51,972 nucleotides of DNA from Rudaea sp. (GTDB lineage Bacteria > Pseudomonadota > Gammaproteobacteria > Xanthomonadales > Rhodanobacteraceae). Both the position numbers and the translations under genes were made by a program. Shown in pieces: positions 9,613-42,428 of this stretch. The stretch lies in NCBI GenBank assembly GCA_025451955.1, contig JANWJJ010000084.1, positions 1 through 51,972 of the forward strand, written 5' to 3'. The notes under the pieces are model-generated. The model saw only the letters and a program-made list of their open reading frames with translations, had not been told where the DNA came from and ran no database searches. The number at the start of each line of letters is the position of its first letter. Position 1 is the first letter of the stretch.

Positions 9613-9717
9613 GCTTCTTGCTCCTGATGTGTGGAACGTGCAACGGCAACACTGCATGGGGAGCCGATACATCGATCCGGTGCGTCACCGATCATCCGCG
9701 CCTACCCGGACATCCTC

Positions 9718-9733
9718 TGTGCGGCAACGTACA
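9718..9733 (-). promoter_or_regulatory. CRP-type operator 1 (TGTNCG-N4-CGNACA)
   Basis: On the plus strand the site reads TGTGCG-GCAA-CGTACA, an exact match to the consensus. On the minus strand a GATGAT hexamer (9691-9696) follows after 21 bp, which would place a start of transcription near 9684, before the gene at 9612. It could also serve the opposite strand. Confidence 0.6.
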
Positions 9734-9825
9734 GAGTTAGGCATTAAGCGAACGCATCATCCGGTTTGTGGAAGCGTCTGCGATCGCCTGGGTAGCCTCG
9801 CGCTCCCCGCAGGCTATGCATGCTG

Positions 9826-9841
9826 CGTTCGCTATTGAACA
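9826..9841 (+). promoter_or_regulatory. CRP-type operator 2 (degenerate), before crp paralog 1
   Basis: CGTTCG-CTAT-TGAACA differs from the consensus at two positions. TGATAT follows after 21 bp (9863-9868), giving a predicted transcription start near 9875 and a leader of about 68 bases before the regulator gene at 9943. This suggests autoregulation. Confidence 0.45.
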
Positions 9842-9942
9842 TACGGCACTGGCACTTGCCTTTGATATTGCCACGTAAATAAAATCGCTTATGCCGGTGT
9901 CGGCAATAACGCAAGCAGCGCCAAAGAAGCTCAAGGTCGTCC

Positions 9943-10662
9943 ATGCCTGCTCCCCACGATCTGCGGAAAAATCATCTTCTGCGCGTTCTGCCCGCAGCGG
10001 AATTCGAGCGTCTGTCGCCACACCTTGAACTCGTGCCGATGCCGTTAGGGCAAGTACTGTACGAGTCCGGCAGTCAGTTGCGGCACGTCTATTTCCCCAC
10101 GACGTGCATCGTCTCGCTGCTATATGTCATGGAAGACGGCGCGTCAGCCGAAATTGCCGTGGTCGGCAACGAGGGCATCGTCGGCATCTCGCTGTTCATG
10201 GGCGGCGAGACCACGCCGAGCCGCGCCCTGGTGCAAAGCGCGGGACATGCCTATCGGCTGAAAGGCCAGTTCATGAAAGAAGAATTTACGCGTGGCGCAG
10301 CACTGCAACATTTGCTGCTGCGCTATACCCAGGCGCTGTTAACCCAAATGGCGCAAACGGCGGTGTGCAACCGCCATCATTCGGTCGATCAGCAGTTGTG
10401 TCGCTGGTTGCTGTTAAGTATGGATCGCTTGCCGTCCAACCAGCTCAACATGACCCAGGAATTGATCGCCAACATGCTCGGCGTGCGCCGCGAAGGCGTG
10501 ACCGAAGCCGCCGGCAAATTGCAGGCGACCGGCCTGATTCACTACAACCGCGGCCAAATCACGGTGCTGGACCGACCACGTCTGGAGGCGCAGTGCTGCG
10601 AGTGCTATCAGGTCGTCAAGACAGAATTCGATCGCCTGCTGCCGGACGTGATCGCAACATGA
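9943..10662 (+). CDS. Crp/Fnr-family transcriptional regulator, paralog 1
   Basis: This 239-residue protein has an N-terminal cyclic-nucleotide-binding-like beta barrel (about 10-130), a long dimerisation helix and a C-terminal winged helix-turn-helix, with MTQELIANMLGVRREGVTEA near 167-186 as the DNA-reading part. It has no N-terminal Cys cluster of the FNR type. It is closely similar over its whole length to the protein at 16680-17468, by eye about two thirds identical. The ligand is unknown. A degenerate operator lies about 110 bp upstream, and several perfect palindromes with CRP geometry occur in the surrounding 12 kb, so the two paralogs are the natural candidates for the factor that binds them. 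That link is inference. Confidence 0.9.
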   Translation: MPAPHDLRKNHLLRVLPAAEFERLSPHLELVPMPLGQVLYESGSQLRHVYFPTTCIVSLLYVMEDGASAEIAVVGNEGIVGISLFMGGETTPSRALVQSAGHAYRLKGQFMKEEFTRGAALQHLLLRYTQALLTQMAQTAVCNRHHSVDQQLCRWLLLSMDRLPSNQLNMTQELIANMLGVRREGVTEAAGKLQATGLIHYNRGQITVLDRPRLEAQCCECYQVVKTEFDRLLPDVIAT

Positions 10663-10697
10663 GATCGCTCATTCGCTGCAACTGCCGCAAATAGCGC

Positions 10698-10738
10698 AAA
10701 AAAAAAAAGCGCCAAACCAGGGGAAGAAGTTTGGCGCC
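10698..10738 (-). terminator. Strong intrinsic terminator (minus strand)
   Basis: A 9-bp stem (10709-10717 pairing with 10729-10737, GCGCCAAAC/GTTTGGCGC) with an 11-base loop is followed on the minus strand by 11 T residues (10698-10708). No protein gene lies upstream of it on that strand. The only candidate transcript is the structured interval described as a putative small RNA. Confidence 0.85.
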
Positions 10739-10792
10739 ATGCAGTTTGCCACTGCCCCGATGGCCATCCTGGCCGTGTTGCCGTCCTCACTA

Positions 10793-10819
10793 CGCGGCGC
10801 TCACGCGCGGCATCTTTCG
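10793..10819 (-). repeat. 27-bp repeat, copy 1 (26/27 match to 17469-17495)
   Basis: Read on the minus strand this stretch matches 17469-17495 on the plus strand at 26 of 27 bases, differing at an A/G after CGAAAG. It contains GCGC-GTGA-GCGC, a possible GNRA-capped hairpin. It lies inside the candidate small RNA, downstream of crp paralog 1. Confidence 0.75.
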
Positions 10820-10878
10820 TTGGGTGCGGGGACTTGAACCCGCGAGACAATTAGTACCACGCACTGGAATTGCACCTC

Positions 10879-10894
10879 TGTACGGTAGCGAACA
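10879..10894 (-). promoter_or_regulatory. CRP-type operator 3, facing the candidate small RNA
   Basis: On the plus strand the site reads TGTACG-GTAG-CGAACA, an exact consensus match. On the minus strand GTACTAA follows at the regulon spacing. This would start a leftward transcript at about 10845 that ends at the terminator at 10698-10738. Confidence 0.6.
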
Positions 10895-10978
10895 CATGCC
10901 GCGTATGCATCGACTCACAGCATGTGTTCACTGGTTTGCAGGACACCGGGTGGGTGCCGCGCCGATCGCCGATCGCTA

Positions 10979-10994
10979 TGTGCGCTGGCGTACA
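10979..10994 (+). promoter_or_regulatory. CRP-type operator 4, before the lipoprotein gene
   Basis: TGTGCG-CTGG-CGTACA is followed after exactly 21 bp by TATGAT (11016-11021), a near-consensus -10 box. The predicted start is near 11028, 137 bases before the lipoprotein ATG at 11165. Its centre is exactly 100 bp from that of operator 3. This is the clearest member of the set. Confidence 0.7.
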
Positions 10995-11164
10995 GATTTG
11001 CATGCCACCCGTGTCTATGATCGTTATGTCACCGATTGAACAAGCCTCCAAATCGCTGCTCGCCGATCGGCGCGAAGTACGCATGGCGGATGTTTCGAAG
11101 ATGTGGCTCGGTTCTGATACGCATTGGGGCCGGACCGAAATTTCATCCTTAGTGAGGTAACAAC

Positions 11165-11617
11165 ATGAACACGGCATCGAAGATATTTGTTACGGGTTTG
11201 GTCGTCGCTCTCACAGCATGCGGTATGTCCAGCCAGAGCGATGTGGACAAGGCAACGCATGATCGCGCCGCGGACATAGCCAAAGCGCAACAGGCTGCGC
11301 AACCGGCACTTGACGCCGCCAATCGCGACGTGGCCAAAGCGCAACAAAACGCGAACCTGAAAATCGCGGATGCGCACGCGGATGCGAATCGCAAAATCAA
11401 CAATGCCACCGTAACTCAAACCAAGGAACGGGCCAAAGCCGATTATGACGTCGCCATAACCGCTGCCGATGGTGATATGTCGGTTGAACTAGAAAAATGC
11501 GGCATGCTGACGGCCGACGCGAAAAGCGCGTGCGAGCAGAATGCGCATTCCACGCATGACCGAGCGGTCGCCGCGGCAAAATCGAACTTGGACGCAGCCA
11601 ATCAGCAAGGCAGCTGA
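11165..11617 (+). CDS. Small alanine-rich coiled-coil lipoprotein
   Basis: This 150-residue protein has a lipoprotein signal peptide with the lipobox LTAC (Cys at 19). The rest is Ala/Lys/Asp-rich with repeated AKAQQ-like segments (about 25-100) that should form a long helix or coiled coil, somewhat like Lpp- or OmpA-linked spacer lipoproteins. A pair of cysteines lies near 113 and 123. The ATG has GAGGT at a good distance. Expression is probably controlled by operator 4. The precise role is unknown; an envelope-stress lipoprotein is an inference from context. Confidence 0.75.
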   Translation: MNTASKIFVTGLVVALTACGMSSQSDVDKATHDRAADIAKAQQAAQPALDAANRDVAKAQQNANLKIADAHADANRKINNATVTQTKERAKADYDVAITAADGDMSVELEKCGMLTADAKSACEQNAHSTHDRAVAAAKSNLDAANQQGS

Positions 11618-11706
11618 GGCGAATTGCACCGCCACCATGCAGTCTGATTTTCATCCGATACCAGCACTTGAATCACTTGGTGCATTACCCACATTTGGAG
11701 AAGTCC

Positions 11707-12960
11707 ATGATCATCGCAACCATCCCTGCTGGGCGGTTCCGGTGCGGCACCGCCCAGTTCACCTCAGCTAGCGCCGGATTCAGCCATAACGCCAGATTCA
11801 TCCTGGTGAGTCTGGCATTCATCACGCTGGCCTGCTTTGTTTCCTCGGCATCCGCACAAAGCGTGTCATTGGGCACAACGACCAACTTCGGCGTGTTGGG
11901 TGGTTCCGCGGTCACCAATACCGGCAGCACTGTCGTCAACGGAAACGTAGGCGTCTGGGCGGGCACATCGATCACCGGTTTTCCGCCGGGCAGTATTTTC
12001 CCCGGTTCCGGATCGATGCACTCCGCCGATGCCATCGCCCAGCAGGCGCAGTCGGATCTCACTGCCGCCTACACAGACGCAGCCAACCGCGTGTGCGGAA
12101 CCACTATCGCAAGCAATCTGCTCGGTGGGCTCACGCTAACGCCCGGCGTGTACTGCATGGGCGCAGGCAACCTGACCGGAACGCTCACCCTCGACGGCGC
12201 AGGCGTCTATATCTTCCAGATGGCCAGCTCGCTGACGACGGCATCGGGTGCCTCGGTCGTCCTGCTCAATGGAGCTTCGGCTTGCGACGTGTTCTGGCAG
12301 GTCTCCAGTTCCGCGACCATCGGTACATCCACCAGCATGGCGGGTAACCTTCTGGCGCTCGCCAGCATCACCTTGAATACCGGCGCGAGCTTGAGCGGAA
12401 GAGCCCTCGCCCGCAATGGAGCGGTGACCCTCGACAGCAACAATGTCACGGCCTGCGCTGCTGCCGCCGGACAGAATCCGACCACGATTAGCACGCTGGC
12501 ATCGGCCGCGACTCAACCGGGCGGCGCCATCCACGACACCGCGACTCTGGCAGGAGGCACGTCTCCGACCGGGACAATCATTTTCCAGCTTTTCGGGCCC
12601 AATAACGCCAGTTGCACCGGGACACCCATCTTCACATCGATGACAACGGTGGCCGGCAACGGCAGTTACGATTCCACCGGCTTCGCGCCTTTGGCCGCAG
12701 GCACCTATCAATGGATCGCGGCTTACAGCGGCGATGCCGTCAATGCCGCATCGGTCACCGTCTGCAACGACGCGAACGAAAGCGTAACGACGACATCAGG
12801 ATTCGTTGCCGCCACGCCGACGCTGTCTACCTGGTCGATGGCCATGCTCGCCGCGCTGCTGCTGGGGTTTGCCATCGTGCGAAACCAGACATCACAGACA
12901 AAGCCGCTGCGCTTATCCGCCAGCGACATCGCACCTCGCGATCCAGCATCGAAGCGGTGA
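11707..12960 (+). CDS. DUF3494 ice-binding-like surface protein with IPTL-CTERM tail
   Basis: This 417-residue secreted protein has a signal peptide ending ...SSASA before QSVSLG. It is followed by a DUF3494 (ice-binding-like) beta-solenoid domain (about 40-260, with TPGVYCMGAGNLTGTLTLDG) and an Ig-like domain (about 265-380). The C-terminus is TPTLSTWSMAMLAALLLGF plus a basic tail, which fits the IPTL-CTERM sorting signal. The ATG at 11707 has GGAGA 5-6 bases upstream; a longer frame from a TTG at 11668 has no such site. DUF3494 proteins bind ice or act as adhesins; which applies here is open. The gene lies 89 bp after the lipoprotein gene and may be read with it. Confidence 0.85.
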   Translation: MIIATIPAGRFRCGTAQFTSASAGFSHNARFILVSLAFITLACFVSSASAQSVSLGTTTNFGVLGGSAVTNTGSTVVNGNVGVWAGTSITGFPPGSIFPGSGSMHSADAIAQQAQSDLTAAYTDAANRVCGTTIASNLLGGLTLTPGVYCMGAGNLTGTLTLDGAGVYIFQMASSLTTASGASVVLLNGASACDVFWQVSSSATIGTSTSMAGNLLALASITLNTGASLSGRALARNGAVTLDSNNVTACAAAAGQNPTTISTLASAATQPGGAIHDTATLAGGTSPTGTIIFQLFGPNNASCTGTPIFTSMTTVAGNGSYDSTGFAPLAAGTYQWIAAYSGDAVNAASVTVCNDANESVTTTSGFVAATPTLSTWSMAMLAALLLGFAIVRNQTSQTKPLRLSASDIAPRDPASKR

Positions 12961-13343: not shown

Positions 13344-13799
13344 CTAGTTCGCGCGCGTCAAGGTGAATTTGCCGATGTCGACGCCAAGATCGACACCTTC
13401 ACCATCGCCGGCGAGGGCCAGGGAGACATCACCCTTGGTGAGTACCTGCGCAGTTCCGGATTTGACCACGCCGGCATGGGCTTCGGCTTCGGCGTATGAG
13501 CCGAGAACATCCGAGATGCGATGTATGTCGGAGAAACGCCCGGTTCCACCATCAACATGCGACTTGCCAACGGTCAAGCCTGCGCCTTTGGCAACGATAC
13601 TGACGCGCATCGACTTGCCGTTTTCGCAGGTGACCATCCCGCTGCCTTCCGAGTGCTTGTAAATTGCCGACCAAGTCGAGAGCGAAAATTTCAGCTTGCA
13701 GTCAAGGTTGGCCGAATTTTCCGCGCGCGCGTGGTCGGGATAACCAGTGACGGTTCCGAGTGCGATAAGCGCTCCTGCTATAACTGTTGTACGTTTCAT
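13344..13799 (-). CDS. Secreted protein of unknown function
   Basis: This 151-residue protein has a signal peptide (MKRTTVIAGALIALGTVTG... cleaved near ARA-EN). The mature part is small and beta-rich, with two cysteines (LDCK and VTCENGK) that may pair, and a glycine-rich C-terminal half (LALAGDGEGVDLGVDIGKF). The ATG at 13799 has GGAGA upstream. Operator 5 with a GATGAT hexamer faces it, giving a leader of about 69 bases. It is probably periplasmic or outer-membrane associated. I could not place it in a named family. Confidence 0.75.
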   Translation of the reverse strand: MKRTTVIAGALIALGTVTGYPDHARAENSANLDCKLKFSLSTWSAIYKHSEGSGMVTCENGKSMRVSIVAKGAGLTVGKSHVDGGTGRFSDIHRISDVLGSYAEAEAHAGVVKSGTAQVLTKGDVSLALAGDGEGVDLGVDIGKFTLTRAN

Positions 13800-13901
13800 G
13801 ATTCTTCTCCGTTGATGGGGTTTTGCCATCCATGCCGCACTGCGCGAATGCGCACATTTCGGAATGGGAAAATCATCATCGGCTTTGGTGGCACACTTGT
13901 A

Positions 13902-13917
13902 TGTACGGCGTCGCACA
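13902..13917 (-). promoter_or_regulatory. CRP-type operator 5, before the secreted protein
   Basis: On the plus strand the site reads TGTACG-GCGT-CGCACA, an exact consensus match. On the minus strand GATGAT follows after 21 bp (13875-13880). Transcription would start near 13868 toward the gene at 13799. Confidence 0.65.
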
Positions 13918-13964
13918 CAGACAGGGGCGATCCGGCACAATCCCATCTACCCCCACAACGCATA

Positions 13965-17468: not shown

Positions 17469-17495
17469 CGAAAGGTGCCGCGCGTGAGCGCCGCG
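17469..17495 (+). repeat. 27-bp repeat, copy 2
   Basis: It matches 10793-10819 (minus strand) at 26 of 27 bases and begins directly after the stop codon of crp paralog 2. The first copy lies in the candidate small RNA behind paralog 1. Both copies are therefore downstream of a crp gene and upstream of a CRP-type operator, although copy 1 is inverted. Confidence 0.75.
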
Positions 17496-17535
17496 AAGAT
17501 GCATACGACATTATGGTTGCGCGCAATCTTTTCTA

Positions 17536-29375: not shown

Positions 29376-30281
29376 ATGGAACTTGGCATGGTAGGTCTGG
29401 GACGCATGGGCGCCAACATGGCGCAACGCCTGGTAACGGGCGGCCACCAGGTGACCGGCTTCGATCCGAACGCGAATGCACGCAAGGCTGTGGAAGCCAA
29501 AGGCGTCGCATCGGCCGAATCGCTGCCGGCATTGGTCACCGCACTGCCGACACCGCGTGTGGTGTGGCTGATGGTGCCATCCGGCAAGATCACCGACGAC
29601 ACCGTCAACGCCTTGCTGCCACTGCTGGCCAAGGGCGACACCGTGATCGATGGCGGCAACTCCAACTACAAGGACAGCGTGCGCCGCGCCAAGCTCTATG
29701 CCGACAATGGCCTCGGCTACGTCGACTGCGGCACCAGTGGTGGCGTGTGGGGGCTAAAGGAAGGTTACAGCATGATGGTCGGTGGCGACGAAAAAACCGT
29801 CGCTGTGCTCAAGCCAATTTTCGAGACGCTCGCGCCGGGCAAGGACCAAGGATGGGGCCGCGTCGGCCTGGTCGGTTCCGGCCACTTCACCAAGATGATT
29901 CACAACGGCATCGAATACGGTTTGATGCAGGCTTACGCCGAAGGCTTCTCGATCCTGCAACACAAGCAGGAATTCGCGCTGGATCTGCAACAAGTCGCCG
30001 AGATCTGGCGCTACGGCAGCGTGGTGCGTTCGTGGCTGCTGGATCTGACCGCTGACGCGCTGAAGAAAAATCCGACCATGCAAGGCATCGCGCCTTACGT
30101 CGTGGATTCCGGCGAAGGCCGCTGGACGGTGGCCGAAGCAATCGATCTCGACGTGCCCGCGCCGATCATCACCGCCTCGCTGATCGAACGTCTGCGTTCG
30201 CGCGACGGCGAATCGTTCACCGACAAGCTGCTGTCGGCGATGCGCAACGAATTCGGCGGTCACGCGATCAAGAAAGAATGA
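29376..30281 (+). CDS. gnd: 6-phosphogluconate dehydrogenase, short decarboxylating type
   Basis: This 301-residue protein has an N-terminal Rossmann fold (GMVGLGRMGANMAQRL), the substrate motifs GGNSNYKDS and GTSGGVWGLKEGYSMMVGG, and the catalytic helix HFTKMIHNGIEYG. It oxidises 6-phosphogluconate to ribulose-5-phosphate and CO2. The short form is often NAD-preferring, but cofactor choice here is untested. AAGGAG precedes the ATG. It lies 87 bp after the GH144-like gene and overlaps pgl by 4 bases. Confidence 0.95.
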   Translation: MELGMVGLGRMGANMAQRLVTGGHQVTGFDPNANARKAVEAKGVASAESLPALVTALPTPRVVWLMVPSGKITDDTVNALLPLLAKGDTVIDGGNSNYKDSVRRAKLYADNGLGYVDCGTSGGVWGLKEGYSMMVGGDEKTVAVLKPIFETLAPGKDQGWGRVGLVGSGHFTKMIHNGIEYGLMQAYAEGFSILQHKQEFALDLQQVAEIWRYGSVVRSWLLDLTADALKKNPTMQGIAPYVVDSGEGRWTVAEAIDLDVPAPIITASLIERLRSRDGESFTDKLLSAMRNEFGGHAIKKE

Positions 30282-30976
30282 ATTCAACGCGCTGGCATGC
30301 CGTCGCGACGCCGGCGGCGCTGGGCGACGCCGCGGTCCAGCGCATTCTGGATGCCGCCACGGACGCCATCGCACGGCGCGGCGAATTCCTGATCGTGCTC
30401 GCCGGCGGCAATACGCCGCGCGATGTCTATTCGATGTTGCGCGGCGCCGTCACCGACTGGTCGCACTGGCGGATTTATTTCGGCGACGAGCGCTGCGCGC
30501 CTACGAACGATCCTGAGCGCAACAGCCAGATGGCGGCGACCACATTGCTCGATCATGTGCCGATCCCGCGCGCGCACATCCATCCGATTCCCGCCGAACT
30601 GGGCGCAACCAAAGCGGCGTCGGCGTATGCAAACACGTTGCACGGCGTCGGCGATTTCGACCTGGTGCTGCTGGGACTCGGCGAAGACGGCCATACCGCC
30701 AGCCTGTTTCCCGGTCGCGATTGGGGCGCCGCACAGGATTCACCCGATACGCTGGCCGTATTCGCCGCGCCCAAACCGCCGCCCGCGCGCGTATCGCTGA
30801 GCGCCGCGCGCCTGAGCCGCGCGCGCGTCGTGCTGTTTCTGGTCGATGGCGAATCCAAGCGCGATGCGGTGGCACGCTGGCGTGCGGGCGCAGATATTCC
30901 CGCCCGCGCCATCCTGCAGCAAGCAGGGGTCGATGTGCTGGTGGAATCCCGATTGTTGTCGCCTGACTGCCACTGA
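30278..30976 (+). CDS. pgl: 6-phosphogluconolactonase
   Basis: This 232-residue protein has the SugarP/DevB-type motifs GGNTPRDVYSMLRG near 43, FGDERCAPTNDPERN near 68 and LGLGEDGHTASLFPG near 130. It hydrolyses 6-phosphogluconolactone, the step between zwf and gnd. It overlaps gnd (ATGA) and converges on the DUF488 gene, with stops only 2 bases apart, so antisense interference between the two transcripts is possible. Confidence 0.93.
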   Translation: MNSTRWHAVATPAALGDAAVQRILDAATDAIARRGEFLIVLAGGNTPRDVYSMLRGAVTDWSHWRIYFGDERCAPTNDPERNSQMAATTLLDHVPIPRAHIHPIPAELGATKAASAYANTLHGVGDFDLVLLGLGEDGHTASLFPGRDWGAAQDSPDTLAVFAAPKPPPARVSLSAARLSRARVVLFLVDGESKRDAVARWRAGADIPARAILQQAGVDVLVESRLLSPDCH

Positions 30977-30978
30977 AG

Positions 30979-31524
30979 TCACAGCAAGCGTTCGCTGCCC
31001 GCCGCCACGTAGATCAGCTCGCCATCGACGATGCGCGCCGGCTGCGTCATCGGATGCGCTGCGGTGTGTTTGGCACCGAGGATATGCACCACCTCGACGC
31101 CCGCCACGCACAAGGCATCGGCGACCATCGAGCGATGGCAGCGCCACCAGACCGCTTCGGAGCACATCAGCGCGGTGCGCGATCGAGCTGCCAGCGTCAG
31201 CAGTTCATCCAGACCCTGCGTGAATTGCGGCGTCATCATGTAATCGGCGTAGCCGCGAAACGAGGCGTTGCGCCAGGCGGTGTTCGGCGAATCCGGCGCG
31301 ACACGGCGGCGGCCGCCGAGCATCGGCAACCATCGATAACCGATTTCATTTTCCGGCAACGTCGCCGCCAAGGCTTCCTTGCCGTATTGCGGATATTTTC
31401 GCGAGCCGGGAAAACTGCGTACATCGGCAATGGCTTGAATATGATATTCGGCGAGCAGGCCGAGAAACTCCTCGATCGGACGGGTCGAATGACCTATCGT
31501 CCAGATCGTTGCGGGTGTGGCCAA
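30979..31524 (-). CDS. DUF488-family protein
   Basis: This protein of about 181 residues contains the DUF488 motifs IWTIGHSTRPIEEFLGLL at its start, RSFPGSRKYPQY, and CSEAVWWRCHRSMVAD, where a Cys-Glu and a Cys-His-Arg pair look functional. No ATG occurs at a suitable place; a TTG at 31524, 18 bp after the transketolase stop, fits best but is uncertain. It is the last gene of the leftward pentose phosphate operon. The biochemical role of DUF488 is not established. Confidence 0.8.
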   Translation of the reverse strand: MATPATIWTIGHSTRPIEEFLGLLAEYHIQAIADVRSFPGSRKYPQYGKEALAATLPENEIGYRWLPMLGGRRRVAPDSPNTAWRNASFRGYADYMMTPQFTQGLDELLTLAARSRTALMCSEAVWWRCHRSMVADALCVAGVEVVHILGAKHTAAHPMTQPARIVDGELIYVAAGSERLL

Positions 31525-31541
31525 GTTTGCGGGGTTGGGCC

Positions 31542-33581
31542 TCAGAGCAACGCCTTGGCGCGCGCGCAAACGTTGTCGACAGTGAAGCCGTACTCGCGTA
31601 GCAGCACATCCGCAGGCGCGGAGGCGCCGAAGCGATTCACGCCCACCCCGGCGCCGTGATCGCCAACCCAGCGTTCCCAACCCTGGCGCACGCCCAACTC
31701 GACGGCGAGCCGCGCCGTTACTGCCGGCGGCAGCACGCTATCGCGATACTCCTGCGATTGCGCCTCGAACAAATCCCAGCTCGGCATCGACACACAGCGC
31801 ACATCGATGCCGTCTTTTTGCAAACGCTCCGCGGCGGCGAGAATCAAACCGACTTCGGAACCGCTGGCAATCAGGATCAACATCGGCTTGGCGTCCGCTG
31901 CATCGCTCAACACATAAGCGCCACGACGCAATCCGTCCGCCGCGGCATAGCGGTTGCGATCCAGGGTCGGCACACTCTGCCGGGTCAAGGCCAGCACGAC
32001 CGGTCGATCGCGCGTTTCCACGGCGACGCGCCAGGCGACCGCGGTTTCGTTCGCATCGCACGGACGAATCAAGCTCAGATTCGGAATCGCACGCAAGTTC
32101 GCCAATTGCTCCAGCGGCTGATGCGTCGGGCCGTCTTCGCCGAGCGCGATGCTGTCGTGAGTGAACACGTTGACGACGTGCAACTTCGACAGCGCAGCGA
32201 GCCGCATCGGCGGGCGCATGTAATCGGAGAAGATCAGAAAGGTGGCGGTGTAGGGAATGAAACCACCATGTGCGGCCATGCCATTGGCGATGGCGCCCAT
32301 CGCGTGTTCGCGCACACCGAAATGCAGATTGCGTCCGGCGTAGCTCCACACTTCGTTCGGCGCGCCCTGTTCATCTGGCTCCTTGCCGGGCGAGAACACG
32401 CCTATCCCCGTGACCGCAGTGAACGTGGACGGATCCAAGTCCGCCGAGCCGCCGCTGATCGCCAGCAACTTCGGCGCAATCGCGCTCAATACTTTGCCGC
32501 CGGCAACGCGCGTGGAGATACCCTTAGCGTCAGTGGGGAATACCGGGATATCGGCGTCCCAGCCTTGCGGCAGTTCACCGTGCAGGCTTTGCTGCAAGGC
32601 TTGGGCGAGTTGCGGATGCGCTTGCGCATATTTGTTGAAGCGCCGGTTCCACGCCGCTTCCGCGCGCTTGCCGCGTTCCTGCGCCTGACGGAAGTGTTGC
32701 AGTGCTGCATCCGGAATCAGGAACGGCGGCTGTTCGGGCCAACCGAGTTTGCGCTTGGTTGCGGCGACATCTTTTTCGCCAAGCGGCGAACCGTGCGCCT
32801 TGAAACTATCTTGCTCCGGCGAACCGTAACCGATATGCGTACGCACCAGGATCAGCGACGGCTTTTTCGTCTGCCTGCATGCGCGCTTGATCGCCTGATC
32901 GATCACGTCCACATCATTGCCATCGGCGACGAACTGCACATGCCAGCCGTAAGCCTTGAACCGCGCCGCGCGATCCTCGGTGAAGGTGATGTCGGTGCCG
33001 GCCGACAAGGTTACATAGTTGTCGTCGTACAGGCAGATGAGTTTGCCAAGTTGCAGATGTCCGGCGAGCGACGCGGCTTCGGACGCCACGCCTTCCATCA
33101 AATCGCCGTCGCTAACGATGGCGTACGTGTGATGATCGACCACGGTGTGGCCGTCGCAGTTGTAGCGTGCGGCGAGCTGCGCCTCGGCCATCGCCATGCC
33201 GACGGCGTTGGCCATGCCTTGGCCTAGCGGACCGGTGGTGACTTCGACACCCGGCGTGTGTCCACGCTCGGGATGTCCCGGCGTCTTGCTGCCCCATTGG
33301 CGGAACTGCTTGATATCGTCGAGCGACAGGTCGTATCCGGTCATGTGCAGCAAACTATACAAAAGCGCCGAACCGTGTCCGGCCGAGAGCACGAAGCGGT
33401 CGCGATTGGCCCACGCAGGATTGGCCGGATGATGTTTCAGAAATTGCGTCCACAACACGTAGGCCATCGGTGCTGCGCCGAGCGGCAGTCCGGGATGGCC
33501 GCTGTCGGCTTTCTGCACCATGTCCACCGACAGGAAGCGAAGAGTGTTGATGCATTGCTGGTCGAGTGCTGGCGTGGTCAT
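31542..33581 (-). CDS. tkt: Transketolase
   Basis: This 679-residue protein has the normal transketolase length. It shows the N-terminal thiamine-diphosphate domain ([18 protein letters not shown] near 28, [13 protein letters not shown] near 157 as the cofactor motif), a pyrimidine domain ([19 protein letters not shown] near 422) and the C-terminal domain. It transfers two-carbon units between pentose phosphates and other sugar phosphates. AGGA lies 8 bases before the ATG. It lies 95 bp after the VIT gene. Confidence 0.96.
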
Positions 33582-33676
33582 GCTAGTTCCTGATCCATTG
33601 TGTGATTGGACACCCCTGCGAGAGTGACCGTGTGTGAGTCAAGTTGCCGTCAAGCCAATAAGGTCGATGGTTTTGC

Positions 33677-34372
33677 TCATGCGGCAGCGCCAAGCAGTGC
33701 GCCGACACCGGCAGTGATCGCCATCGCCAGCGCACCCCAGAAGCCCACGCGCAGCGCGCCGACCGTCACACTGGCGCCGCCCACGCATGCGGAGACGCCG
33801 CCAAGCAACGCGAGGAAGACCAGCGCGGTGACGAAAACGAGTGCGATCACGGTACTTGCTGGAGACAACACGGCAACCAACAACGGCAACGCAGAGCCGA
33901 TGGCAAAACTCGCCGCCGAGGCCGTGGCGGCCTGCAGCGGTCGTGCCCGCAATGCTTCGGTGATGCCAAGCTCGTCGCGGGCATGTGCATCCAGTGCATC
34001 GTGGGCCATCAGCTGCACGGCAACTTGCCTGGCAAGGGCCGGATCCAGCCCGCGACCGACATAGATCGCGGCTAGTTCCTTGTGCTCTCCTTCGTTGTCG
34101 GTGTGTAGCTCTTGGCGTTCCTGCTGCAGCTCGGCCTGCTCGCTGTCGGCTTGCGAATGCACCGACACATATTCGCCCGCCGCCATCGACATCGCCCCCG
34201 CCACCAGTCCGGCCACGCCAGCCACCAGGATGCCGGTGTGACTGGCATGCGCCGCCGCCACACCGAGCAGCAGGCTGGCGGTCGAGACGATGCCGTCGTT
34301 CGCGCCCAGCACGGCCGCGCGCAGCCAGCCGATGTGGCTGGTGCGATGTCGCTCATGATGACGTGCGCGCAT
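33677..34372 (-). CDS. VIT1/CCC1-family transporter
   Basis: The 231-residue protein has the VIT family layout: a first helix with AAVLGANDGIVSTASLLLGV, a second with GLVAGAMSMAAGEYVSV, a charged cytoplasmic helical domain (about 75-145, with EQAELQQERQEL), and three C-terminal helices. Relatives move Fe(II) or Mn(II). AAGGGA precedes the ATG. Its place between pgm and tkt is odd for a metal carrier, and the functional link is not obvious. Confidence 0.88.
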   Translation of the reverse strand: MRARHHERHRTSHIGWLRAAVLGANDGIVSTASLLLGVAAAHASHTGILVAGVAGLVAGAMSMAAGEYVSVHSQADSEQAELQQERQELHTDNEGEHKELAAIYVGRGLDPALARQVAVQLMAHDALDAHARDELGITEALRARPLQAATASAASFAIGSALPLLVAVLSPASTVIALVFVTALVFLALLGGVSACVGGASVTVGALRVGFWGALAMAITAGVGALLGAAA

Positions 34373-34443
34373 GGATTCCCTTCACTGGGTTGTCGTGCGC
34401 ACAGCCATGTGGCGCATGGTGCAGCTTTTGATGCGCTGGTCGA

Positions 34444-36096
34444 TCATGTGCCGCCAAGCGCCGCGTCGACGATCTTCTGCGCTTCAGCCAGAACGCTCTG
34501 CAGGTGGTCCTGGCTCTTGAAGCTTTCCGCGTAGATCTTGTAGATCGCCTCGGTGCCGGACGGTCGCGCGGCGAACCAGCCGCTGGCGGCCACGACCTTG
34601 ATGCCGCCGATCGCCGCGCCATTGCCCGGTGCCTTGTCGAGCACCTGCTCGATTTTTTCGCCGGCGAGCAGGTCGCTCTTCAATTGATCGGGCGACAGCC
34701 TGGCCAGCTTCGCCTGTTGCGCGGGCGTGGCGGCCGCTTCGACACGATCGGCGAACGGTTCACCGAGTTCCTTGGCTAGCTGCGTGTACAGCTCGCCCGG
34801 GTCCTTGCCCTGACGCGCCGTGATCTCGGCCGACAGCAGCGCCGGCACCAGACCGTCCTTGTCGGTGGTCCATACCGAGCCGTCGTGGCGCAGCAGCGAG
34901 GCGCCCGCGCTCTCTTCGCAGCCGAAGCCGAGCGAGCCATCGAACAGGGCTTCGGAAAACCACTTGAAGCCGACGGGCACTTCATACAGCGATCGACCCA
35001 ATCGCTTCACCACGCGGTCGATCAGCGCGGTGGTGACCACGGTCTTGCCGACCGCGGCCTTGGCGTTCCAGTTCGACCGATGCTGGAACAGATAGTCGAC
35101 CAGTACCGACAGGTAACGATTCGGTTCCATCAGGCCCCTGCTGCGGGTAACGATGCCGTGGCGATCGTGGTCGGTGTCGCAGGCGAACGCGACATCGTAT
35201 TGGTCCTTCAGTCCGATTAGTCGCTGCATTGCATACGACGACGATGGATCCATGCGGATCTTGCCGTCCCAATCCACTGTCATGAACGCGAACTGCGGAT
35301 CGACTTCTGCGCTGACCACGGTGAGGTCGAGCTTGTAGCGCTCGGCAATCGGCGCCCAGTAATGCACGCCGGCACCCCCCAGCGGATCGACGCCCATATG
35401 CACGCCGGCGCTACGGATAGCATCGAAGTCGATGATGTTGGCGAGATCGGCGACGTAGTTATTGAGGTAATCGTGTTCGTGGGTCGTGGAGGCCTTGCGC
35501 GCCTGCGCGAACGGCATGCGCTTCACATCTTTCAGACCGCCTTCGAGCAGCGCATTGGCGCGGTTCTGCACCCAACCGGTGATGTCAGTGTCGGCCGGGC
35601 CGCCGTTGGTGGGGTTGTATTTGAAGCCACCGTTGTCCGGCGGATTGTGCGACGGCGTGATCACGATGCCATCGGCGAGGCCACTGGTTCGCCCCTTGTT
35701 GTAGACCAGGATCGCGTGCGAGATCGCCGGCGTCGGCGTGAACTCGCCGCCGGTGGCGATCATCGTCTCGACGCCGTTCGCGGCGAGCACTTCCAGCGCG
35801 TTCTCGAACGCGGGCTGCGACAGTGCATGCGTATCCGCACCGATGAACAACGGGCCGTCGATGCCCTTGCTCTTGCGGTATTCGTAGATCGCCTGGCTGA
35901 TCGCGAGGATGTGCCACTCGTTGAAGCTGCGATCAAACGAGCTGCCGCGATGGCCGGAGGTGCCAAACGCCACGCGCTGCGCGGCCACCGACGGATCGGG
36001 CTTGAGGTCGGCATACGCAGTGAGCAGCTTCGTGATGTCGACCAGGATCGACGCCGGTGCCGGCTTGCCGGCGAGTGGACTGATGATTTGACTCAT
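34444..36096 (-). CDS. pgm: Phosphoglucomutase (alpha-D-glucose phosphate-specific)
   Basis: This 550-residue protein has the active-site serine loop [11 protein letters not shown] near 145, the metal loop DTDHDRHG near 305, the sugar-binding loop CEESAGAS and the phosphate-binding RPSGTE near 510. It interconverts glucose-1-phosphate and glucose-6-phosphate. In this setting it would connect the GH94 phosphorylase product to zwf and also supply glucose-1-phosphate toward UDP-glucose. The ATG at 36096 overlaps the pgi stop, indicating coupled translation. Confidence 0.95.
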
Positions 36097-37763
36097 GCTT
36101 TTCCCGAAGTAGCGTCGTCGCGCAGCTGGCGATAGCGGCGGATCAAGGCGTTGGTCGAACTGTCGTGCGCGAGTTTTGGCTCGTCCTTGCTGGCGATTTC
36201 CGCCGCCGTTGTTTTCGCCAGTTGCTTGCCCAGTTCCACGCCCCATTGATCGAACGAATCGATATTCCAGACGACGCCTTGCACGAACACGGCATGTTCG
36301 TACAGCGCGACCAGCGCGCCAAGGGTTTGTGGATCGAGCCGTTCGGCGAGGATCGTGTTGCTGGGACGATTGCCTTCGCACACGCGATGCGGCACCAACG
36401 CCGGCGGCGTGCCTTCGGCGCGGACCTGATCAGGCGTCTTGCCGAACGCCAGCGCTTCGGATTGTGCGAAAACATTCGCCATCAACAGATCGTGTTGATT
36501 GCCCAGCGGATTCAAGCCTTGGCAGAAGCCGATGAAATCGCAGGGAATCAGACGCGTGCCCTGATGGATCAATTGATAAAACGAATGCTGGCCATTGGTG
36601 CCCGGCTCGCCCCAGAAAATCGGGCAGGTAGAATAATCCACATGTGTACCATTCAGCATGACGTGCTTGCCGTTGCTTTCCATCGTCAGCTGTTGCAGAT
36701 ACGCGGGGAAACGTTTGAGGTATTGCGCGTAAGGCAGCACAGCCACGGCTTCGGCGCCGAGAAAATTGTTGTTCCAAACTGCCAGCAGGCCCATCAGCGC
36801 GGGCAGATTGCGTTCCAGCGGTTCGCTGCGGAAATGTTCGTCCATCGCGCGGAAGCCGGCCAGCATGGCGCGGAAATTCTGCGCACCGATCGCTAGCATG
36901 GTCGACAGGCCGATGGCAGAATCCATCGAGTAGCGGCCGCCGACCCAATCCCAAAACTCGAACATGTTCGCGGTGTCGATGCCGAATTTCTTCACCCCGT
37001 CGGCATTGGTCGATACGGCGACGAAATGTTTCGCGATCGCGCCATTGGCGTCCGTCTCGTCTTCGCCCAAGACCTTCAGGCACCAACTGCGCGCTGCGTG
37101 CGCGTTGGTCAGTGTTTCCAGCGTAGTGAAGGTTTTCGAGCAGATCACGAACAGGGTTTCGGCGGCATCCAGATCGTGCGTGGCTTCGACAAAATCGGTG
37201 GCATCGACGTTGGATACAAAACGGAAATTCATGTCGCGTCGGCTGTAATGGCGCAGCGCCTCGAACGCCATCACCGGGCCAAGATCGGAACCACCGATAC
37301 CAATGTTGACGATATTTCGGATGGGTTTGCCGGTATGCCCTTTCCAGTTGCCGCTGCGCACACGCTCGCTGAAACTCGCCATGCGATCGAGCACGGCTTG
37401 CACGTCCGCCACCACGTCGTGGCCATCGAGCAGGATTTTCTCGCCGGCCGGAGCGCGCAATGCCACATGCAGCACCGCACGATTTTCGGTGGTGTTGATG
37501 CGGTCGCCGCGAAACATCGCGTCGATGCGCGCACGCAAACCGCAGGCGTCGGCGAGTTCGCGCAGCAGGCGCAAGGTGTCGTCGTTGACGCGCTGCTTGG
37601 AATAATCCAGATACAAACCGGCAGCTTCGGCGGTGAGGCGTTCGCCGCGTTGCGGATCGGCGGCGAACAAGTCGCGTAGTTGCGTGGTCTTGATCGCGTC
37701 GCGATGACGCAGCAATGACTGCCACTGTGGGCGTTGGGTCAACGGTGTCGTTTGGGCGTCCAT
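36093..37763 (-). CDS. pgi: Glucose-6-phosphate isomerase
   Basis: This 556-residue protein has the family motifs [20 protein letters not shown] near 153 and [14 protein letters not shown] near 280, with an active-site Lys region near the C-terminus ([13 protein letters not shown]). It interconverts glucose-6-phosphate and fructose-6-phosphate. It lies 1 bp after tal and overlaps pgm by 4 bases. Confidence 0.96.
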
Positions 37764-37764
37764 A

Positions 37765-38856
37765 TCATGCTCCCTTGCCTGCGCTCAGTGCCGCACTCTT
37801 GGTGGCGATGCGTTTGAGCAATTCCTGCCACGATGTGACGAACTTGGCGGCGCCTTCGACTTGCAACCTGGACGCCAACGCGTCGATATCGACGCCTGCG
37901 TTGGCGAAGCGCGTCAGCATCGTTTCACAATCGCCGCCGTCCTCGCGCATCGCGCCGCCGAGTTTTCCGTGATCCGCAAAAGCACGCAAGGTTTTCTCCG
38001 GCATCGTGTCGATGGTGTCGGGAGCGGCGAGCGCGGAAATGTACAAGGTGTCCGCTGCGTCCGGATCCTTGGTGCCGGTGCTGGCCCACAGAAGGCGTTG
38101 CGGCTGTGCGCCGGCTGCGGCGAGTTTCTGCCAGTGCGAAGAGGCCAGCAGCTCGCGATAGGCAAGATAGCTGCGCTGGCCGATCGCGATGCCGAGTTGA
38201 TTGCGTAATTCCGGTGGCACCTTGTCCTTGACCGCGACATCCCAGCGGCTGACAAACAACGACGCCACCGAACCGACCTTCGGATCGAGCCCCTTGGCGA
38301 TACGCCGTTCGATGCCGCGCAGGTAGGCCTCGGCGGCGGCCAGATACTGTTCGCGCGAAAACAGCAAGGTGACGTTGACCGGCACGCCGTTGAAGATCGA
38401 TTCTTCGATCGCCGCAACACCCGCAGGCGTGCCGGGAATCTTCACGAACAGATTGTCGCGCGCGGCCTGGCGATGGATCTGCGTGGCTGCGGCGATGGAG
38501 CCGGCGGTGTCGGCGGCCAGCAGCGGCGAGACTTCCATCGACACCCAGCCATCGACGCCCCCCGTCCGCTGGAAAATTGGCGCGAACAGATCCGCAGCGC
38601 GGCGCAGATCTTCCAGCGCCAGCTCGATGAACAGTACCTCGCCGGATTTGCCCGCGCGGGTTTTTTCGCGGATGCCGGCATCGTAGGCGTCGCCGCTGCC
38701 GATGGCTTCGTCGAAGATCGTCGGGTTCGAGGTCAACCCAGTGATCGAGAATTTGTCGACGTAATCACGCAAGCCGCCGTTGTCGAGCAATTCGCGGGTG
38801 ATGTTGTCCAGCCACAGGCTCTGGCCGAGATCGTGCAATTGCTGCGTGGTGTTCAT
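37765..38856 (-). CDS. tal: Transaldolase
   Basis: The 363-residue protein has the transaldolase signature [14 protein letters not shown] near 40 and [12 protein letters not shown] near 140 with the Schiff-base Lys. The length fits the longer TalA/Tal form found with pgi in high-GC bacteria. It transfers a dihydroxyacetone unit between sugar phosphates. AAGGAGA precedes the ATG, which overlaps the stop of the HAD gene (ATGA). Confidence 0.94.
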
Positions 38857-39554
38857 GCGTTCTCCTTTACGTGTGCGGGCGCGCCCGACGAAAAATACGC
38901 CCGATCGCAAGCGAGCAAATCGCCGATGCGTTCGATGCTGCGGTCCGGTACCGGATCGATCGTGGCGTTGGCCGACGCCGCGGCGTAGTGTCCCTGACGC
39001 ACGAACACGGTGGTCAATTTCGCGCCGAGCGTTCGCTTCATCGCTGCCAGCAATTGCGGCTTGTCGTCGATCATCACGTAATGCTGCGCCGGGAAACGCC
39101 GCTGCATCGCGTCGAGATTCTGTTCCTTGTGCAAACAAACCATGACCCGGCCATCCACCGCATCCCACAATCCACTGCACTGGATCTTGCGTGGCTGGAA
39201 CACGATGTCGCCATCGGAAAGAATGGCGGTAACGCCCAGGTTGCGAAGGTGCGCGATGGCATCGAGCGCTGCGGGATAAAGCTGTTGCGAAAACGGGTAG
39301 TCGAGCAGGAAGGCGGACATGTGCAGCAACGCCGGATCGTCCTCGCAACCGATGCGGAATTGTTCCAGCGTGCCGATATAGTCCGCATAGCCCAGTTCGT
39401 CGCGCCGTGCCGCGTAGATCGACCAGTAGCGGCCACACTCGGCGGCGCCGAAATCGTGTTGCAGCCGTGCGCGCAAATCCGCGCCGAAATGATCGTTGTC
39501 GAGTACGGTGTTATCGACGTCGAGCAGAAATACCAGCGGCGTGAGTTTCAGCAC
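38853..39554 (-). CDS. HAD-family hydrolase
   Basis: This protein of about 233 residues starts with the HAD motif [15 protein letters not shown], has a helical cap (about 35-100), motif II near AILSDGD and motif IV with [12 protein letters not shown]. It is a probable phosphatase of unknown substrate. A GTG at 39554 gives the most compact start; a TTG at 39587 would overlap zwf further. Lying between zwf and tal, it may hydrolyse a sugar phosphate or repair a by-product, which is inference. Confidence 0.82.
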
Positions 39555-40939
39555 GGCGACGTCGCTTCGGGCCTCGGATCGTGCCAACCCTCATCGCCGA
39601 CCACCACCCTCGCCGCCGTCACCGGACCCCAGGTTCCCGGCGCGTATTCCTGAGCCGGCTCGGCATTACCGAGCGCCGGATCGACCACCGCCCACGCAGC
39701 CTCGACGCATTCGTCGCTGGTAAACAGCGCCGCGTCGCCGCGGATAGCGTCGCCGAGCAGGCGTTCGTAGGGAGATTTCTCGCGCTCCGGGCGATGGCGC
39801 GCAATCAGTTCCGCCGCTTCGCCGCACATGTCCTCACCCGGAAGTTTGACCCGCACACCCGCCGAAATCACCACTTCGGGACTCAAGCGGAAACGGAAAT
39901 AGTTCGACTGCGGCGGCGCGATCTCGTCGAACACCGCCAAGGGCGGACACTTCAGATCGACCGTCACCTCGGTCGTGGTGATCGGCAGGCATTTGCCGGC
40001 GCGAATGTAGAACGGCACACCCGCCCAGCGCCAGGTGTCGATATGCAGATGCAGCGCGGCGAAGGTTTCCACATTGGAATCTGGCGCCACGCCTTTTTCG
40101 TCGCGATAGCCCTTGAACTGGCCACGCACCACCTGTTTGGGATCCAGTGGTCGCATCGCGCGGAACAGGCGCAATTTTTCCGCGCGCATGAACCGCGCAT
40201 CGCGGCCGATCGGCGCATCCATCGCCAGCAGCGCGGTCACTTGCAGCAGATGATTCTGCACCACGTCGCGGATGGCGCCGGCTTCCTCGTAGAAGCTGCT
40301 GCGACCCTGCACGCCGAAATTCTCGGCCATCGTGATCTGCACGTTATCGACGTAATTGCGATTCCAGACTGGTTCGAGAAAGGTATTGGCAAAACGGAAG
40401 TACAGCAGATTCTGCACCGCTTCCTTGCCCAGATAATGGTCGATGCGGAAAATCGCCGATTCCGGAAACACTTCGTGCAGCGTCTTGTTCAGCGCCTGCG
40501 CGGACGCCAGGTCGCGGCCGAAGGGTTTTTCCACGACCACGCGCGCGTCGTCGGCACAGTGCGCTTTCGCCAATCCACGCACCACGGTTTCGAACATGCT
40601 CGGTGGAATCGCCAGATAATGGATCGGCCGCTGCGCCTTGCCGAGCGCCTGCTTCAGGCGATCGAACGTGGTCGTATCGTTGTAGTCGCCGTCGACGTAA
40701 TTCAGTTGCGCTGAGAGTTTGGCGAATGCGGCTTCATCCACGCCGCCATTGTTCTGCAAGCTGTCGCGCGCACGATCGCGCAATTTGTCCAGCGTCCAGC
40801 CACCGCGCGATACGCCGATGATCGGCATATCGAGATCATCGCGACGGACCATTGCTTGCAGCGCGGGAAAAATCTTCTTGTACGCCAGGTCGCCGGTGGC
40901 GCCGAAAAAAATCAGGGCATCGGATTTGAGAGCGCCCAT
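39548..40939 (-). CDS. zwf: Glucose-6-phosphate 1-dehydrogenase
   Basis: The 463-residue protein has the nucleotide-binding motif [17 protein letters not shown] near the start and the substrate motif [13 protein letters not shown] near 165, with the conserved EKPFGRD upstream. It oxidises glucose-6-phosphate to 6-phosphogluconolactone with NAD(P). The ATG at 40939 has AGGTG upstream; a longer start at 40969 is less likely. It is the first gene of the leftward operon zwf-HAD-tal-pgi-pgm-VIT-tkt-DUF488. Confidence 0.95.
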
Positions 40940-41136
40940 TTTCACCTGCCTTTTGTCGATTCTCGACACGTTGGTCCTGCATCTCAGTCACACAGGGTAC
41001 GCCGCAGAGACCTCCCTGTAGACGCCATGATGGCCGGAAGGTTCGCGAAAATGCGCGCCGGAGTCATCGCGGCGCACGATCTGTGGCAATCCGCGGAAGC
41101 CTTCGCAATCAAGGCTTCCGCGATTGTCCGCGCAGA

Positions 41137-41940
41137 TCAATGCTGGTTATTGTCACCGCCGTCTTTGTCTTTATTGTCTTTCCTCTCGGGCACCGCTTTT
41201 GCTGCCGGCGCTTTCCGCACCGGCTTGGGTGCGGCCACCGCGTGCGTCGTCACCGTCCTGGATTGAACGGATCGCTGTTCCGTGGCTGGTCTTGGCGCAG
41301 CCGGGCGATGCGTTACCTGCTGTGCGACCTGACTGGCGTGCGCTTGCGGCGCACGCACGTTCGTTGCAACCGGGCGTGCCGGCGCAGTTTTCACGGCTGG
41401 TCTGGCTTGGTGAGCGTGCGAAGTTGCGGCCGGTGCCGCGCGGTCGACCGGCGCACTCGAAGCGCGTGCGCCGCCATGTTCTGCGTCGTGTGAATTTCCG
41501 CGCGACGGATTATTACTTCGCACCGTTACGGCGTGATACTGCGGCCGCACCTGGCTCCAATGTTGGCGTTGACCATACCACGAACGGTTGCGGTAGTGCT
41601 CGCTCCAATACGTTCCGAACACGAAGCTGACGATCGGGATGCCGATGCGCACGCCATATTCGGGAACGAATACGCGCTGTCCTTGATACTCTTCCTGCAG
41701 GAAGTTTCCGGCAATCCAGCCGCGATTGTCCTGTGCGGATACGTCGCACCACGACCAACCATCGACGCAACCGTTGATGGCGACCGACGTGCCAGCGCTC
41801 AACATAACCACGCTCGGATAATCCGAATCCGGTCCGGCGCGCAAATTTACGTTGCCGGTCACGTAACCATCAGCGGCAAAGGCCGATGCGGTTGCGAAGA
41901 TGGAAACCCCCAACGCTGCTGTGGAAAGAATACGTTTCAT
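41137..41940 (-). CDS. Secreted SH3-domain protein with a long basic tail
   Basis: This 267-residue protein has a signal peptide (MKRILSTAALGVSIFATASAFA), then a bacterial SH3 domain (about 25-85, with GNVNLRAGPDSDYPSVVML and GWIAGNFL), and a disordered Ala/Pro/His/Arg-rich tail ending in a Lys/Asp-rich stretch. SH3b domains often bind cell-wall peptides. An ATG at 41946 is possible, but the Shine-Dalgarno distance favours 41940. Operator 10 with TAATTT lies just upstream. Confidence 0.85.
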   Translation of the reverse strand: MKRILSTAALGVSIFATASAFAADGYVTGNVNLRAGPDSDYPSVVMLSAGTSVAINGCVDGWSWCDVSAQDNRGWIAGNFLQEEYQGQRVFVPEYGVRIGIPIVSFVFGTYWSEHYRNRSWYGQRQHWSQVRPQYHAVTVRSNNPSRGNSHDAEHGGARASSAPVDRAAPAATSHAHQARPAVKTAPARPVATNVRAPQAHASQVAQQVTHRPAAPRPATEQRSVQSRTVTTHAVAAPKPVRKAPAAKAVPERKDNKDKDGGDNNQH

Positions 41941-41972
41941 CTGCATTGCCCTCTTGAGCCTGAGGGATCAAA

Positions 41973-42428
41973 TTACGTCATTGGCGCGAAACTCACTGTG
42001 CGATAACGAACATAGGCATTAATGAACACTCCGTCCCAAGGGCGGGTATCACAAACACCACAGGTCGACGTCAATTTCAACATGCGTGGCACGCTCAAGC
42101 CCACGCATATCGCATCGTTGCTTGCCGCGGTGATGCCGGCGATATTGCTCACTTTCGAATCGCTTACGACGGCCATCGCCGAAAGCGGCACAGACTGTCT
42201 CTCTCCGAGCGTGTACCCGGTAAGCTTGAACAGGCGGCCGTACGGAGTGAGTTCCGGAAACTGGCCGCCCGCATGGCAAGCTTGGCAGTTCTGTCCGGTT
42301 TGACGGTTGAAGACCGGTAGCGCCGCTGCATCGTCGGGACACAGCGTCGCAGCGACCGCGATCAATGCCATTCCACATAGAATCGCGCGTGCCAATTTGC
42401 TTCGGAGATCGACGAGAATCGGACACAT
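41973..42428 (-). pseudogene. Truncated cytochrome c-type gene
   Basis: The frame has a signal peptide, a heme-binding motif QNCQACH near 49-52 and a following segment (GGQFPELTPYGRLFKLTGYT) characteristic of the N-terminus of a family of larger (about 400-500 residue) outer-membrane-associated cytochrome c proteins. After roughly residue 95 the similarity is lost. The frame then runs through operator 10 into the promoter of the SH3 gene and stops at 151 residues. I read this as the 5' remnant of a gene whose 3' part was deleted, next to the tRNA end. Confidence 0.65.
41997..42012 (-). promoter_or_regulatory. CRP-type operator 10, before the SH3-domain gene
   Basis: On the plus strand the site reads TGTGCG-ATAA-CGAACA, an exact consensus match. 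On the minus strand TAATTT (41970-41975) follows after 21 bp. The predicted transcription start is near 41963 and the SH3 ATG follows about 23 bases later. It is the only clear copy outside 9.7-22 kb. Confidence 0.65.

Follow-up and report, generated by a model that had tools for sequence, protein, structure and literature searches.

McaS of E. coli combines two activities, base pairing and CsrA binding, and the TwoAYGGAY RNA (RF01731) carries two GGA hairpins. In Xanthomonas, the small RNA sX13 acts through its CCCC loops on G-rich motifs; it has three C-rich loops, is encoded after polA and is expressed constitutively (PMC3771888). RsmU, a second Xanthomonas RNA, arises by processing of a comEA-like 3' UTR; it binds RsmA, and neither this binding nor its function was abolished when all GGA motifs were changed (PMC7694677). 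The latter result calls for caution with any argument based on GGA motifs. The same study reports that no homologue of CsrB/RsmX/RsmY/RsmZ-type sequences was found in Xanthomonas (PMC7694677), and it is beside this lack that CsrA-type sites in the small RNAs of a related bacterial family would matter.

The window (the whole stretch of DNA analysed, 51,972 nucleotides) contains on its minus strand, from 10845 to 10698, what looks like a self-contained RNA gene of about 148 nt with its own promoter and terminator. Compared by description and not by sequence, the predicted RNA resembles sX13 in being a small intergenic RNA of the same order whose apical loops carry CCCC and for which pairing with G-rich ribosome-binding sites is plausible. 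It differs from sX13 in that its C-rich runs number one or two, in its GGA sites and GNRA hairpin, and in a promoter of the Crp or the sigma-54-like type; the position after polA is not shared either, as the window copy lies between crp paralog 1 (crp1) and a lipoprotein-like gene. With the CsrB/RsmY/RsmZ-type antagonists and RsmU it shares the occurrence of GGA motifs, including one within a hairpin loop, and the presence of csrA, which was looked for and found in its own genome. It differs from this group in having mostly two or three GGA motifs, no Rfam match and a Crp-type or sigma-54-like promoter. The likeness to TwoAYGGAY is that both are short RNAs with two GGA sites; a search for that family in 16 genomes of the genus gave no match, and the control of this search also matched nowhere. 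McaS, going by its general description, is similar in the proposed dual output and the small number of GGA sites.

Our preferred reading, to which we give about an even chance, is that the interval encodes a free-standing small RNA that is activated by a Crp/Fnr paralog and has two activities, binding to CsrA and pairing with G-rich ribosome-binding sites. Such an RNA could work like sX13 or RsmU, and membership in either family is not claimed. CsrA-binding small RNAs and small RNAs with C-rich loops are kinds already known; the RNA described here would be a variant of these. The interval, from a soil bacterium, very probably yields a regulatory RNA that belongs to a family unlisted so far and without an Rfam match.

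Architecture of the RNA gene and its promoter

Read along the minus strand, the Crp/Fnr-type operator TGTTCGCTACCGTACA (10894-10879), an exact TGTnCG-N4-CGnACA palindrome, is followed after 22 nt by the -10-like TACTAA (10856-10851), which is preceded by TGG and thus forms an extended -10 element (10851-10859), and by a predicted start near 10845, placed from the -10. Downstream of the start, the fold contains a 5' hairpin, GCGGG...CCCGC (10826-10843), whose stem is longer in the genome G007. It is followed by H1 (10794-10811), GC.GCGC-GUGA-GCGC.GC, a hairpin supported by alignment and pair counts, with a GNRA tetraloop that reads GUGA, GCGA or GAGA among the copies. The first GGA site (10784-10786) lies outside any conserved hairpin, and the second occupies the loop of H3, GGCC-AGGAU-GGCC (10762-10774), which was recognised from fold and alignment. 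A G run with the small hairpin GCAGU...ACUGC following GGG (10741-10755, from the fold) precedes the terminator hairpin (10709-10738, from sequence and fold), with the C-rich loop UUCUUCCCCU (loop 10728-10719), and 11 T residues (10708-10698) follow the GCGCCAAAC/GTTTGGCGC stem.

The initial annotation had proposed an exact operator at 10879, a -10-like TACTAA, a strong terminator with 11 T residues and a position between crp1 (9943-10662, plus strand) and the lipoprotein gene (11165-11617, plus strand), and each of these was confirmed. A simple terminator scan missed the terminator of the window copy, probably because the loop in the fold has 9 nt and the limit of the scan is 8, and a sigma-70 scan (TTGACA/TATAAT) called no promoter at the RNA gene. 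A tRNA-like stretch, GGGTTCAAGTCCC, was considered separately and was not called as a tRNA.

Two further statements of the initial annotation hold in the main. It had found no coding frame in the interval; an 80-aa frame starting with TTG (10608-10850, minus strand) is in fact open and covers it, but alignment of this region to G007 requires gaps of 1, 2 and 1 bases, so no reading frame is conserved. The open frame speaks for a translated short gene, which we nevertheless regard as extremely improbable in view of these frame-breaking gaps and the further length differences in other copies. The several hairpins noted before are present in the fold, but the fold of the window copy is itself unexceptional, with a z-score of -0.81 for a stretch beginning 17 nt before the predicted start; two relatives gave -2.60 and -2.84. 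The window copy alone folds unremarkably, and the structural evidence comes from the family of copies.

In class II CRP/FNR promoters the centre of the dyad is near -41.5, and an extended -10 lies downstream of it. The half-site TGTnCG with its 4-bp spacer is unlike the TGTGA-N6-TCACA and TTGAT-N4-ATCAA sites of known CRP/FNR proteins. An alignment was made of 18 sites chosen upstream of RNA, crp, lipoprotein-like, SH3-like and secreted-protein genes, plus two sites of the genome G008; each of the 18 was oriented towards its own gene, three carried one mismatch, and the better of two neighbouring spacings was scored. The -10-like score was highest at 21-22 nt past the operator (4.9, against a mean over spacings of 2.7 and a standard deviation of 0.54), and the position of the peak was unchanged when the RNA sites were left out (score 5.1). 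The fit was not universal: in G007 and on contig C23 of the genome G001, the sites ahead of the crp genes lacked this geometry. The spacing, taken together with general knowledge of CRP/FNR promoters, predicts an operator dyad at about -41.5/-42.5, that is, class II geometry.

The window contains five exact operator palindromes (at 9718, 10879, 10979, 13902 and 41997), which equal 10 matches when both strands are counted. First-order Markov shuffles held 0.13 strand-counted matches each, with a maximum of 2 over 30 shuffles; the consensus had been drawn up after some of the sites were already seen. In the 2.55-Mb genome to which the window belongs, an incomplete assembly in 154 contigs, seven places match exactly, five of them inside the 52-kb window, and the reversed-pattern control matched once. 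The abundance of the operator in the window exceeds chance.

Copies, conserved structure and promoters in related genomes

Searches of 233 genomes of the taxonomic family yielded 14 full copies of the RNA, one of them tentative, in nine genomes, and the presence of the RNA is patchy. The copies are those of the window and G007, six in G001, and one each in G012, G005, G190, G030, G019 and G101. G001 is judged to be a Rudaea MAG (JARLJU010000173.1), and NCBI places Rudaea in the Rhodanobacteraceae, Lysobacterales. BLASTN against 60 relatives detected the RNA in four genomes, the own genome included. A core model built from seven sequences (R1) matched in 9 of the 233 genomes, of which seven were left after reading; the matches L024 and L026 lacked GGA hairpins and terminator and were rejected. 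A second model built from 12 sequences (R2) matched in 33 of the 233 genomes at E <= 0.01, mostly near 25-30 bits. Nine new R2 matches were examined: that of G019 was clear (37.2 bits) and accepted, that of G101 was kept as tentative with 30.3 bits, a score no better than those of rejected matches, and the remaining seven (L036-L040, L057 and L058) were discarded because they lacked GGA hairpins and terminator or lay inside apparent coding sequence. The other weak R2 matches (at most 27.9 bits, known copies aside) stand outside the count of 14. By construction, 12 of the 14 copies are part of R2 and those of G019 and G101 are independent of it, while the copies of G005, G190 and G030 and two of G001 are independent of R1.

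In a sample of 299 genomes of the order, partly of the same taxonomic family, no match outside the family exceeded 30.2 bits. The strict pattern of H1 followed by CCAGGAYGGC occurred in three records of a collection of species genomes. None of the 14 copies matched Rfam, either at the gathering level or with the limit relaxed to an E-value of 1; under a limit of 5, three weak matches appeared in the region 9700-11700, namely mir-138 (in crp1), SNORA77 and Xoo2, with E-values of 0.96-1.8. Other Rfam matches in the loci of the copies were tRNA genes elsewhere in those loci. In L076 of G019, a selenocysteine tRNA gene (11551-11642) lies about 5 kb from the RNA copy. Among publications on small or noncoding RNAs of Rudaea, Rhodanobacteraceae and Dyella, no title concerned such an RNA.

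The conserved structure was assessed in a 12-copy alignment, which was made by hand with the structure in mind and leans towards it; 94.2% of its cells pair. In this alignment, both-sided changes occur at 5 of the 10 pairs of H1 and H3, a value that none of 500 shuffles reached and that lies above all slid versions. Of the five measures used for changes in pairs, one, the count of additional pair types, was not above the shuffles (270/500). H1 is complete in the single-sequence fold of 8 of the 14 copies, including that of the window. The stem of H3 is altered in G190 and G030, where the loop retains GGA. All full copies end in a strong hairpin, which in 11 of 14 is followed by a clear T run, and the sequence beyond H1, the GGA sites and the terminator diverges among copies.

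The promoters of the copies are of two kinds. The operator and the extended -10 are found together in four copies, exactly in the window and G007 and with one operator mismatch each in G001a and G001b. Five others look sigma-54-dependent: the commonly given -24/-12 consensus is present in full in G001c and G001f, at 14 of 15 positions in G190 and G030 and at 13 of 15 in G012, and 0.6% of shuffled upstream regions reached 13 of 15. The upstream regions of G001d, G001e, G005, G019 and G101 contained no recognised promoter. Two of the copies in G001 form a tandem (L069, contig C244, at 5803 and 6045, 242 bp apart), in which a complete sigma-54-like -24/-12 element precedes the first copy and no promoter was recognised for the second.

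These features also bear on whether the copies could be structured repeats, perhaps mobile ones, or else 3'-end elements that have spread near crp genes and have no activity in trans. The six copies in G001 would fit such an element, as would a remnant of a second copy directly after crp paralog 2 (crp2) in the window (17470-17519, plus strand), in which H1 is kept and neither GGA hairpins nor a terminator was seen. The strong terminal hairpins with their T runs, the recognisable promoters of nine copies, and a divergence outside H1, GGA sites and terminator that is unlike a recent repeat all argue against it, and we consider it very unlikely.

The initial annotation had suggested a search of relatives for conserved structure. 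The structure found argues for an RNA, but in G008 crp1 and its operators are retained without a detectable copy. The claim of an RNA gene sharing its operator with crp1 and the lipoprotein gene is well supported by conservation, promoter geometry and the terminator.

GGA sites and C-rich runs

In the 42 nt past H1, the 14 copies contain 31 GGA motifs, compared with 16.6 +/- 2.8 expected, and none of 1000 dinucleotide shuffles reached this number; the search models contain GGA columns, by which copies found with the models are biased towards GGA. A GGA lies within a hairpin loop in 11 of the 14 copies (60 shuffled sets: mean 2.0, maximum 5), the exceptions being G001b, G001d and G101, and G001b has lost the second GGA (AUGAU). 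The first GGA of the window copy is partly unpaired (0.67). An unpaired pyrimidine run containing CCC occurs in 13 copies, G101 being the one without (60 shuffled sets: mean 2.4, maximum 6), and in 11 of 14 a CCC lies inside a predicted hairpin loop. The location of this run varies, from the 5' hairpin in some copies to the terminator in others.

Because the copies are related, shuffle tests overstate their independence. Among the six copies found by BLAST only, the GGA total was 12 (6.7 expected; 2 of 1000 shuffles reached 12), a GGA was in a loop in five (shuffles: mean 0.6, maximum 2) and the C-rich run was present in all six (shuffles: mean 1.0, maximum 4). With one representative for each evident pair or group, 7 of 10 copies had a GGA in a loop and 9 of 10 had the C-rich run, against shuffle maxima of 4 and 4. 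Since the enrichments were kept in both subsets, the probability assigned to our reading was left unchanged.

The GGA sites in loops, on which the initial annotation is silent, suggest that CsrA is a partner, and the shape of the RNA suggests CsrA binding together with the blocking of ribosome-binding sites. Each of these outputs might also exist alone. A pure antisense RNA of the sX13 kind, whose GGA loops would be merely structural or pair with C-rich mRNA, would account for the unpaired C-rich runs in nearly all copies, a feature outside the search models; it also has a precedent in the CCCC loops that sX13 directs at G-rich motifs (PMC3771888). It would leave unexplained that the first GGA begins 7-8 nt past H1 in 12 of the 14 copies, a position fixed relative to H1, whereas that of the C-rich run shifts, and that in 12 of 14 the second GGA has an unpaired value of 0.78 or more while the stems of H3 vary. 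We regard this possibility as rather unlikely.

A pure CsrA/RsmA-sequestering RNA with a CsrB/RsmZ-like function, in which the C-rich runs would be accessory and might, for example, close on the GGGG of the same molecule, appears less probable still and is unlikely in our judgement. The GGA statistics and the presence of csrA agree with it, and a GGGGCAG past H3 in the copies of the window, G007, G001a, G190 and G030 could pair with the C-rich run. Sequestration as the sole function fits less well with the two or three GGA motifs that most of the RNAs contain and with a C-rich enrichment that equals that of GGA in loops in strength.

The local Crp-like regulon and the proposed mechanism

The product of crp1 contains the Pfam domains cNMP_binding and HTH_Crp_2 and is a likely activator. 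An exact operator palindrome upstream of crp1 (9718-9733, plus strand) suggests autoregulation. Another exact palindrome (10979-10994, plus strand), with TATGAT 21 nt downstream, precedes the small lipoprotein-like gene, which probably belongs to the same regulon; the gene had no Pfam match and only a weak NCBIfam match far under the cut-off. Two further exact palindromes on the minus strand lie before a predicted secreted-protein gene without a Pfam match (13344-13946; operator 13902-13917) and before a gene that we take to be SH3-like (41137-41946; operator 41997-42012), a label assigned, like that of a presumed vit1-like gene, by reading the sequence and not by family search. Homologues of the secreted-protein gene also have the operator, exact in G007 and G008 and with one mismatch in G001:C23. 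The operators between 9718 and 42012 mark a predicted local Crp-like regulon comprising crp1, the RNA and the lipoprotein-like, secreted-protein and SH3-like genes. Directly beyond the lipoprotein-like gene, two genes from the RNA, is a gene for an ice-binding-like protein (11668-12960), and the gene adjoining the RNA copy of G007 encodes a homologue of this protein.

A crp1-like protein (E <= 1e-30) was found in 5 of 16 genomes of the genus, and in all five an exact operator lies before the best homologue, roughly 70-210 bp ahead of the aligned start. G001 has two further crp fragments; a one-mismatch site accompanies the fragment on C23, and the only site close to the fragment on C24 is the operator of the RNA itself. 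The 11 genomes of the genus without a crp1 homologue still hold one to nine exact operator matches each, so single matches are uninformative and the operator alone is no proof of Crp control. The operator-driven copies of the RNA are confined to genomes with the crp gene (G000, G007 and G001). In G001, one such copy lies directly 3' of a crp gene 68% identical to crp1, and another copy of the RNA lies about 0.85 kb ahead of a crp gene that is truncated at the end of its contig. In G008, which keeps the crp1 gene and its operators, the model searches gave no RNA match, and the RNA is thus dispensable to the regulon of that genome. Nine operator-like sites (seven without mismatch and two with one) surround the crp1 homologue of G008 (L111, 5865-16585), which is 87% identical to crp1; a second crp-like frame nearby contains one TGA.

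The sequence supports the anatomy of the RNA gene, its conservation, the operator with its geometry, and the recurrent GGA and C-rich loops; transcription of the RNA, its activation by Crp, CsrA binding and pairing with mRNAs are what we infer from them. In the proposed mechanism, the crp1 protein, and perhaps also that of crp2, would bind the TGTnCG-N4-CGnACA operator centred near -41.5/-42.5 and activate RNA polymerase at the extended -10 in the class II manner. The same activation would extend to crp1, to the lipoprotein-like gene and to a few nearby genes for predicted secreted proteins. The RNA would begin near 10845 and end at the T-tract at 10698. Its two GGA sites, which are spaced apart and of which one lies in a hairpin loop, may bind and titrate one CsrA/RsmA dimer, and the unpaired C-rich loop may pair with mRNAs at their G-rich ribosome-binding sites. 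For an RNA that acts by titration, two or three GGA sites would be a small number, which counts against this reading.

The initial annotation had further proposed that the RNA arm represses envelope genes, as in other envelope-stress systems, a role to which the pairing results lend no solid support. When the C-rich loop was compared with 22 start regions of the window, the SH3-like gene gave the best pairing, with an energy of -11.3 kcal/mol that 5% of random sites matched, followed by the presumed vit1-like (9%), ice-binding (10%) and secreted-protein (13%) genes, and none of the 22 was significant after correction. For the two counterparts tested in G007, SH3-like and ice-binding, 18% and 48% of random sites were as good.

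On a broader scale, we put forward tentatively, and with some doubt, that the copies represent an RNA family of Rhodanobacteraceae-type bacteria, unlisted so far, with interchangeable Crp-like and sigma-54 promoters and dual outputs as CsrA antagonist and against ribosome-binding sites, and thus a GacA-independent Csr route. If this is true, separate signals would be fed through two promoter types into the same RNA outputs, and the RNA would exemplify one scaffold fitted with both types. It would also offer a testable link from a local Crp-like regulon to the global Csr system.

The contig that holds the regulon also carries pentose-phosphate genes (29376-40969), of which gnd, tkt and zwf were identified by family search and a pgl-like gene by eye. 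In both G190 and G030, a distance of about 2.7 kb separates the RNA from zwf.
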